64,000 nt of DNA, taken from NCBI RefSeq assembly GCF_001625215.2, contig NC_030384.2, positions 36,862,390-36,926,389 of the forward strand, given 5' to 3'. Of the stretch, positions 5,364 through 8,114 are shown piece after piece. Source of the DNA: Daucus carota subsp. sativus (Eukaryota > Streptophyta > Magnoliopsida > Apiales > Apiaceae). Both the position numbers and the translations under genes were made by a program. The number at the start of each line of letters is the position of its first letter. Positions within the stretch are counted from its first letter, which is position 1. Under the pieces are notes generated by a model. It searched no databases. It saw only the letters and a program-made list of their open reading frames with translations, and was not told the origin of the DNA.

Positions 5364-6313
5364 TCAAGCAGAAGGAGCAGCCTTTTGTTTCTTTGGTGCA
5401 CGGTATGCACCAACAACACAAGCATGGTCCCTCTCAAATGGCTCGAGTGTAACCTGTTCAGAAGGCTTGAATTGATCTGCTTGCAGTTTCTTCACTTCTT
5501 GGGCAAACACTGCCTCTGCTGGAACAGTCGAGTCAATACAGTTTGCCTGTATTTTATTTCAAAAGATGGTAGGGAAACATAAGTGTATATACAAAGTTTT
5601 ACTCGTAAATAATACGAGTGAAGATTCAAGATAATAAAACACCAACTGGGCTTAAGCACCTACAAAAAATCTATAGCAAATTAAGAGTACCTTGATTGAA
5701 ATTACAAAATGACCTCCAGCTTTCAGAAAGTATGATGCATTCAAAGCCAAAATCCTAGCCTGCAAATAGTTTAATAGAGGAGATAATTACACATTGAACA
5801 AGGTCAAACCACGCCAGAAAAAATTGTTCCTAGTAACAAAACTACTACTAGTTTATGGTTCCACCACCCTCATTTGCTCCCACATCAATAGTACAAAAAA
5901 GAAGAGGCAAAAAGTTGATATAAGCTCAGGCCTTACCTTCATACTGCAGGTTTAAATAGTCTACATGCGGTGCCAAGATTATTCTCAATCACTGCTTAAC
6001 AGCATATTACAAAAATCTTTTGAACTCTGAGCAAAATGCTCATGTGAGATTTTAAAATAATTTCTTTCAATTTCATTAAACAAAAAGTATCACCTTTAGC
6101 TACCTTACTAAATGCCTACAGGATTTTTAAAATAATTTTGTCTAGAACTTATAACACTCATAATAATATTTTGCATTTTCATATCTTTCAAAGGACATAA
6201 ATGCATCAGAAACTCGGTTTTGCATCATCCATGCAGTCCTGAAGGGGAATCCGAGTAAATCATCATCAGCTTGCCAAAAGAAATATATAAAGCACAGAAC
6301 ACAGTGGCAATAT

Positions 6314-6369
<56 letters not shown>

Positions 6370-8114
6370 GGACTGTAAAACCATAAAAGCTTCACTATTT
6401 CATAAATAGTAGTCACCACAGAATCTTTACCAGAAATTTCAAAGCAGAGTAAAATATTAAAAGTTCAATGAACAAAAAAAAACTAGGAATGAAGATGGAA
6501 AATTAAAATAAAATGATTACATAAATGCATCAGAAACTCGGTTTTACATCACCCATGAAGTCTTGAAGGGGAATCCGAGTAAGCTCTTCATTTGCCTTTT
6601 GAGAAAAACAATGACTAGAAACATAAAACATAATCACCACCCAAGCAATACTGGGAACCAAAGTTAAGCTTAAAAAACACCACTACAGATAATCAGCTAT
6701 TAATGAACTTTGGTACTTGTATAAACATACTTAAAAGCATTGTAAGGACATCACATATAATCATATAAGTCAATGCAGCCAGACTTTCCAATGTACCAAT
6801 AAGCATTCAAATGTATCATACAACTCATAAAGACAAGAATGCATATCAACGACAGAAGTATACCTGATCAGGCTGAGCAACATCAGAAAATATAACATCA
6901 ACCATTCCAACAAGCATTCTGTACTTGGCTGGATGTCTGGCATCCTCAATAATAGGTATAACATTAGTACGCTTCTTTGCCATGTTAACCAAGTCCCTAC
7001 CACTCCTGTGAGAGAATTCAACTGCATAGACCACTCCAGACTACAAAATAAAGCCAGTAAAAATAAGCATTTGTAAGACAAGTCTATCAAGAACATAATA
7101 GTTTATGTTTGATTATGTTCCCAGAATATATATACTTTCTAGGGGATAAAAAATGTCAGACATCAGTAATAGTAGTGCTTACAGGTCCAACAAGATCGGA
7201 AACATGAGACACAGTTGTTCCTGAAGCAGCTCCAAGATATAACACCTTAGCACCAGGTTTCTTCATCCAAAAAGAAGAAAATTTAGAAAGCATTTTTAAA
7301 TATTTAAACAACAAATACAGAGCATCTCATAAGCTACACACTTACAATCCAAATGTTGTCTACACCACCGAGAATAGCAGCAGCTAACTTTGATCTAAAT
7401 GGATTCCACACCCTGTACTCAACCTTGGTTCCATCTTCATTCTGTTCCGAAAACAACACAAGCATTAATGAGCATAGCAATAACAATTAATATAATCCAC
7501 CACTCCAACAACCACCAATATAAAAGTGCTGACTAACAAACAAGTAAACAAACAAACAAATAACAATTGTGTGACTATTAACAATTACTAACTAATCCAA
7601 ATGATTAGTTTCAGCTATACAAATCACCGGTTCATACAATTCTCATTTTAAATAGATACGAGTTGTCAATCAACTAAAAGCCTTCGTATCGCAAAAAAAA
7701 AGATATACCTGAACAGAGACTCTCTTCTCATTGTAAACAGCCTCCCCGGGAACCATATTCTTAGTACAAAGCGCATCTTCCTTTCCCTTAGCAATAAACA
7801 CACCTTCATGTCTATGTGGCTCCACCACGACTTTGCTCCCTCCTTTCATTCCACCGCCACGTCCTCCTCGGCCGCCACGGCCGCCGCCGCCGCGTCCCCG
7901 GCCTCTATCACTCGCACCTCTTCCACCAAAACCACCGCGCCCCCTACCTCGACCGCCTCCATCGCTCCTGCCGCCGCCACCGCGGAAACCCCCCGAACCA
8001 CCACGTCCTGCAAATTTAAACAATTAAGATGATTTTACACGATAAGATTACTAAGCACTAATGATGAACATAATTATACGTTTGTTGTATCTATATACCT
8101 CTTGGTGGCCTCAT
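5364..8114 (-). CDS. FIB: Fibrillarin, rRNA 2'-O-methyltransferase of box C/D snoRNPs
   Basis: Seven exons on the minus strand: 8114-8099, 8007-7709, 7441-7346, 7260-7183, 7040-6864, 5759-5691 and 5546-5364 (TGA). They give 305 residues, within the plant range. Fibrillarin is the catalytic subunit of nucleolar box C/D snoRNPs, methylating rRNA ribose with SAM. Plant copies have also been found in Mediator (MED36). Residues 1-65 form the glycine/arginine-rich domain (repeated RGGGG, GRGRGG). The Rossmann methyltransferase domain follows, with the SAM-binding segment [18 protein letters not shown], then [13 protein letters not shown] and the conserved C-terminal [14 protein letters not shown]. 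The start is the first ATG, encoding MRPPRGRGG. The fifth intron (5760-6863) is unusually long and carries two snoRNA-like repeats. Telo-boxes and site II-like motifs lie upstream. Confidence 0.97.
6200..6275 (-). ncRNA. Box C/D snoRNA candidate, copy 1 (U60f-like), in fibrillarin intron 5
   Basis: Read on the minus strand, a box C (AUGAUGA, 6266-6260) and a box D (CUGA, 6209-6206) enclose about 50 nt, with a C'-like UGGAUGAUG in the middle (about 6230-6222). GCA and UGC just outside the boxes can form a short terminal stem. The segment before the central box contains 13 nt antisense to AAGGGGAATCCGA (6242-6254), which I recall as part of a conserved 25S rRNA stretch (GACAAGGGGAATCCGACT). Arabidopsis fibrillarin genes are known to carry a box C/D snoRNA, U60f, in their fifth intron, and this is also intron 5. 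The boxes, copy number and position are seen in the sequence. The identity as U60f and the rRNA target are inferred. Confidence 0.75.
6329..6368. repeat. (TA)n microsatellite
   Basis: About 38 bases of alternating TA lie between the two snoRNA-like copies within fibrillarin intron 5. Confidence 0.95.
6524..6598 (-). ncRNA. Box C/D snoRNA candidate, copy 2 (diverged), in fibrillarin intron 5
   Basis: This is a second copy of the same roughly 72-bp sequence, about 324 bases from copy 1 and differing at only about seven positions. Box D (CUGA, 6533-6530) and the 13-nt rRNA-like antisense (complement of 6566-6578) are intact, and the C'-like box reads GGUGAUGU. Box C has become AUGAAGA (6591-6585), one change from the consensus, so processing may be weaker or lost. 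It may be a functional isoform or a decaying duplicate. Confidence 0.6.

Follow-up and report, generated by a model that had tools for sequence, protein, structure and literature searches.

Predicted twin snoR60 guide snoRNAs in intron 5 of a carrot fibrillarin gene, with a matching pair in a paralogue

Intron 5 of a carrot fibrillarin gene holds two near-identical units that look like box C/D snoRNAs, raising the questions of whether they are rRNA methylation guides, how they came to be doubled, and whether they bear on the expression of the gene that hosts them. We examined these questions in a window of 64 kb, the whole stretch of DNA that was analysed. The host gene lies on the minus strand, and its seven coding exons, joined at GT-AG borders, yield a single 305-aa frame; a Pfam search of this product matched PF01269 (Fibrillarin) over residues 67-294 (367 bits, 3e-110). 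Intron 5 is 1104 bp long, compared with 85-267 bp for the other five introns.

5364..8114, minus strand: fibrillarin gene, seven coding exons (GT-AG splicing and PF01269)
8114-8099, 8007-7709, 7441-7346, 7260-7183, 7040-6864, 5759-5691, 5546-5364, minus strand: exons of the fibrillarin gene (GT-AG splicing)
5760..6863, minus strand: intron 5, phase 0, 1104 bp, containing both snoRNA units (splice model)

The whole window was scanned against 4227 Rfam families. Both units scored as snoR60 (RF00339) on the minus strand, at 91.4 bits for copy A and 79.1 bits for copy B against a gathering cut-off of 40, and no family besides snoR60 reached its gathering score anywhere in the window. The first-pass annotation had described two near-identical units in intron 5 and proposed that they were U60f; the Rfam scores bear out the identity, and the coordinates and the intron number are correct (72 nt for A, 71 nt for B). 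The copies share 94% identity over an ungapped stretch of 64 nt.

6526..6597, minus strand: snoR60 copy A, upstream in the transcript, 72 nt (RF00339, 91.4 bits, E 3.5e-19)
6585..6591, minus strand: copy A box C, AUGAAGA, one base off the consensus RUGAUGA (sequence)
6566..6578, minus strand: copy A antisense element UCGGAUUCCCCUU, 13 nt (sequence)
6561..6565, minus strand: copy A D'-like CAAGA, directly after the antisense element (putative D')
6547..6551, minus strand: copy A C'-like UGAUG (putative C')
6530..6533, minus strand: copy A box D, CUGA (sequence)
6202..6272, minus strand: snoR60 copy B, downstream in the transcript, 71 nt (RF00339, 79.1 bits, E 9e-16)
6260..6266, minus strand: copy B box C, AUGAUGA, exact (sequence)
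6242..6254, minus strand: copy B antisense element UCGGAUUCCCCUU, 13 nt (sequence)
6237..6241, minus strand: copy B D'-like CAGGA, directly after the antisense element (putative D')
6223..6227, minus strand: copy B C'-like UGAUG (putative C')
6206..6209, minus strand: copy B box D, CUGA, near the 3' end (sequence)

The 13-nt antisense element noted earlier as common to both units is indeed present in A and B. The claim that each carries box C, C'-like and D motifs holds for the C'-like UGAUG and box D of both copies and for the box C of copy B; the box C of copy A, whose imperfection that annotation did not mention, reads AUGAAGA. Neither copy has a strong box D' (CAAGA in A and CAGGA in B, versus CUGA), and of the four pairs of the terminal stem in the Rfam model, three are standard in A and two in B. 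Free folding of the four units found in fibrillarin genes (this pair and the paralogous pair described below), taken with their flanks, was not better than that of shuffled sequences (z 0.18, 0.84, 1.02 and -0.59). We are highly confident, judging from the sequence, that A and B alike are box C/D guide snoRNAs encoded within an intron and belonging to the snoR60 (U60f) family. Intron 5 would be transcribed with the fibrillarin pre-mRNA, and the snoRNAs would be trimmed from it and bound by 15.5K, NOP56, NOP58 and fibrillarin; the antisense element upstream of D' would then pair with 25S rRNA at GGGGAAUCCGA and direct 2'-O-methylation to the G that corresponds to G2125 of Arabidopsis 25S.

The complement of the guide is AAGGGGAAUCCGA, which we take to be plant 25S rRNA, with agreement at 13 of 13 bases. 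A search of the assembly for the carrot's own 25S with the pattern AAGGGGAATCCGACTG returned 2 matches, neither of which is an Rfam match or rRNA by eye. As a partial stand-in for the carrot 25S we used an IMG/VR contig with eukaryotic LSU rRNA in its first bases: this fragment, beginning TTGGGGAATCCGACTG, is complementary to 11 of the 13 bases of the guide, and from its base 7 onward it aligns to the Rfam LSU model, starting at model position 2131. The contig, 3300007304_000150, is listed as viral, and its positions 1-549 begin with eukaryotic LSU rRNA; in the alignment, 399 of its bases stand against 56 model positions, possibly reflecting an rRNA intron. A longer rRNA pattern had no match among prokaryote genomes. 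The guide pattern had no exact match among viral contigs or prokaryote genomes, and the region had no match among phage records, as expected for a plant gene. The base to be methylated depends on where D' is placed. Under the D+5 rule, taking CAAG/CAGG as D' singles out the third G of GGGG, and shifting D' one base later (AAGA/AGGA) singles out the second; a neighbouring site reported at A2127 (PMC8053127) agrees with the third or fourth G and not the second. That the predicted base is a G, as had been proposed, accords with Arabidopsis, where U60 is the guide listed for 25S G2125 (Wu et al. 2021, PMC8053127). A paper on algal nucleomorphs gives LSU-G2114 rather than G2125 for Arabidopsis U60.1F (PMC6461891), presumably as a matter of different numbering.

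How far, then, does this locus depart from what is known? In Arabidopsis, the fibrillarin intron that hosts U60f is, we assume, likewise the fifth. U60.1F and U60.2F lie in an intron of FIB1 and FIB2, respectively (Wu et al. 2021, PMC8053127), and their discovery in Fib1 and Fib2 is credited to Barneche et al. 2000 in a review (PMC8351944); the content and host of the carrot intron are thus conserved with Arabidopsis, as the first-pass annotation had suggested. Its further idea, that expression of guide and enzyme might be linked, is already in print for Arabidopsis: in fib1-1, U60.1F is not expressed and methylation of G2125 is lower, and in fib2-1, where the insertion lies downstream of U60.2F, both U60.1F and U60.2F are kept and methylation is unaltered (PMC8053127). 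Since FIB1/FIB2 and the fib1 mutant data establish these points, the RNA type, the host and the tie to host expression are known, and the duplication is the new part. The carrot units share with U60.1F/U60.2F the RNA family (RF00339), the fibrillarin host and the intronic location. They differ in number, as the available Arabidopsis text names one copy per gene whereas here there are two per gene in two genes, and in the AUGAAGA box C of copy A. A snoR60 pair in its usual plant host is largely an ordinary find, and the points worth noting are the duplication, the variant box C and a possible poison exon. Among titles and abstract openings, with subscription papers mostly outside the search, we found neither a duplicated U60 in a fibrillarin intron nor a splice-regulated plant fibrillarin, a weak negative in both cases. 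The accessible portion of a paper on fibrillarin evolution (PMC7608942) contains no snoRNAs in fibrillarin introns, and that of a paper on snoRNA guide activity (PMC8522698) holds nothing useful on U60. Plants are described as having few intronic snoRNAs (PMC5122169), and a snoR60 is named in cotton (PMC11222342).

The history of the pair can be read from a second fibrillarin gene. Searching the assembly (441 Mb, 11 contigs) for snoR60 at E up to 10 gave at least 20 places, at least 13 of them over the cut-off; these counts are lower bounds, 61 of 60585 first-look candidates having been scored. The same search of 14 control genomes gave matches in 11 and none over the cut-off. Four of the places are in fibrillarin genes: two are the units in the window, and the other two lie on another chromosome, C3, at 41.56 Mb, where fibrillarin pieces occur at 70-100% identity and both snoRNAs lie between exons corresponding to exons 5 and 6. 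Between the two genes, A matches A at 91.3% over 69 nt and B matches B at 91.5% over 71 nt; including the flanks brings these figures to 86.2% over 87 and 84.9% over 106. When the four copies and 15-nt flanks were aligned, with gaps counted as letters, eight columns divided the copies two against two: seven unite the two A copies and the two B copies, one unites the copies of each gene and none supports the third arrangement. Because the copies group by position, the duplication within the intron is probably older than the duplication of the fibrillarin gene, and the most likely course is a tandem duplication inside the intron followed by gene duplication, which would have produced the four copies in fibrillarin genes. 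The locus would thereby extend a known plant arrangement, with guide and enzyme in one gene and the guide probably doubled before the gene was.

The rest of the intron has fared differently. Between the genes, the intron 5 sequence preceding copy A and that separating A from B align at background level (134 and 357, respectively, of 500 dinucleotide shuffles scored as well); apart from the snoRNA regions and a 31-nt stretch discussed below, BLAST between the two fifth introns gave no match below E 0.15. Introns 3, 4 and 6 likewise show no similarity above chance (182, 173 and 91 of 300 single-base shuffles did as well), and intron 2 is marginal (8 of 300). That the snoRNAs are about 91% alike while most of the intron sequence is not alignable between the genes argues, at the level of sequence comparison, for selection on the snoRNAs. 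All four fibrillarin copies retain the 13-nt guide and box D.

Outside the fibrillarin genes we found at least 13 diverged snoR60 relatives, all on C3, of which at least nine are over the cut-off and at least four below it (E 3.9e-4 to 0.042); three matches at E 7-10 were taken as chance and left out of the alignment. Eight of these relatives lie at 4.51-4.66 Mb, two at 16.9 Mb and three at 49.57-49.61 Mb, and none of the 13 has an intact 13-nt guide. Such relatives lend some credence to the view that the two intron 5 units are themselves non-expressed remnants and that G2125 is guided from elsewhere. We regard this as extremely improbable, since guide and box D persist in four copies while most of the surrounding intron sequence does not, and since the intronic copies of Arabidopsis are expressed and loss of one lowers methylation (PMC8053127). 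The eight of the 13 C3 relatives whose surroundings were read sit in repeatedly duplicated segments, together with some 50-300 bp of the fibrillarin intron 5 sequence that flanks copy B; these segments have longer matches to the intron of the C3 paralogue than to that of the window gene. In the two segments whose ORFs were listed, pieces of a SNF2/helicase-like gene are recognisable nearby by eye. A third fibrillarin gene as the source of the extra copies was not supported among the eight examined: tblastn at E 1e-3 found no fibrillarin exons in the seven 10-kb stretches that hold them, rows matching solely the glycine-arginine-rich first part of the query having been dropped, and blastn of the exons gave one 30-base match (E 0.008).

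The copies may not contribute equally. In the window gene most of the snoRNA may come from copy B, given the variant box C of copy A. A stronger version holds that the working snoRNAs are copy B and the two paralogue copies, window copy A being a decaying duplicate because AUGAAGA no longer forms a proper kink-turn. Exact AUGAUGA is indeed found in three of the four fibrillarin copies, window copy A being the exception, and diverged snoR60 copies do exist elsewhere in the genome; yet A outscores B in Rfam, retains its guide and box D intact, and is as like its paralogue counterpart as B is (91.3% versus 91.5%). We consider decay of copy A a real but lesser possibility and favour the reading that both units are guides. 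With a variant box C in one of them, the four fibrillarin copies offer a natural comparison for the cost of a box C change.

Downstream of the snoRNAs, intron 5 contains one more stretch that is common to the paralogue's intron.

5933..5963, minus strand: 31-nt stretch downstream of the snoRNAs, common to the paralogue's intron 5 (alignment and BLAST)

Read from 5963 to 5933, it is TAGACTATTTAAACCTGCAG-TATGAAG-GTAA in the window gene, and in the paralogue it is TAAACTACTT-AACATGCAG-TATTAAG-GTAA. Together with the next two bases, the window stretch comprises GCAG (5947-5944), TATGAAG (5943-5937) and GTAAGG (5936-5931), a layout of acceptor-like GCAG, 7 nt and donor-like AAG/GTAA. Its alignment score of 35 was reached by none of 500 shuffles of its region, the best of which scored 34; among the four parts of intron 5 tested, shuffles of two others reached 35 and 38, and the conservation signal is modest. 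BLAST matched the stretch between the genes at E 0.001. AAGGTAA occurs once in intron 5 of each gene, inside this stretch, and the pattern with up to two mismatches occurs once in the 64-kb window, where 0.09 occurrences are expected. Because intron 5 lies between codons, inclusion of the 7 nt would bring a stop at once in both genes (TAT GAA GGC TAG versus TAT TAA). The 7 nt therefore resemble a poison exon, although their use as an exon is speculative.

A precedent for such an arrangement exists in human NOP56, where SNORD86, a snoRNA within a gene for a C/D protein, controls splicing (PMC11028025). By analogy, intron 5 could also act as a sensor, in which C/D assembly on the snoRNAs shifts splicing to the 7-nt poison exon and lowers fibrillarin when it is plentiful. 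The shared acceptor, 7-nt and donor-like layout and the immediate stop in both genes despite differing 7 nt are consistent with this, as is the human case; against it stand the modest signal (best shuffle 34 versus 35), the small base of two genes in which the stretch is known here from DNA, and the Arabidopsis fib mutant data, which need no splicing loop. Pairing of the snoRNAs with the 31-nt stretch was likewise not beyond chance overall: of 300 shuffles, 13 equalled or bettered the pairing of window B, 160 that of window A, 36 that of paralogue B and 124 that of paralogue A. We rejected such cis pairing as evidence; pairing with the whole intron downstream of B fared no better (34, 79, 44 and 91 of 300 shuffles as good). 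We judge a sensor role very unlikely. The likeness to SNORD86 lies in a box C/D snoRNA within the gene for a core protein of the C/D snoRNP, but SNORD86 is an orphan acting in cis on splicing, as far as the available text describes it, whereas snoR60 is a conventional rRNA guide whose cis role is hypothetical (PMC11028025). SNORD2 in human EIF4A2 is similar in being an intronic box C/D snoRNA with a possible effect on host splicing, and is described as interacting with its host intron downstream of itself (PMC11028025); unlike SNORD2, the pairing here is weak and not common to the paralogue.

In its fullest form, intron 5 of both fibrillarin genes would be a self-limiting module of twin snoR60 and a 7-nt poison exon, which we hold to be very unlikely. 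Plentiful C/D proteins would load onto the nascent snoRNAs, and splicing would then include TATGAAG (TATTAAG in the paralogue), leading to an immediate stop and decay of the message. If true, plants would possess a counterpart of the NOP56/SNORD86 loop that is based on the enzyme itself and a genuine rRNA guide; should the 7 nt prove to be an exon, snoRNP assembly in plants could be linked to the level of fibrillarin.

Between copies A and B, a long run of AT dinucleotides (6310-6370) is present in the window gene, with no such run seen in the paralogue's intron. Just upstream of copy B, at 6292-6305 on the minus strand, lies ACTGTGTTCTGTGC, which is nearly identical in the paralogue; this piece scores 25 between the genes, a value reached by none of 500 shuffles, the best of which scored 24.
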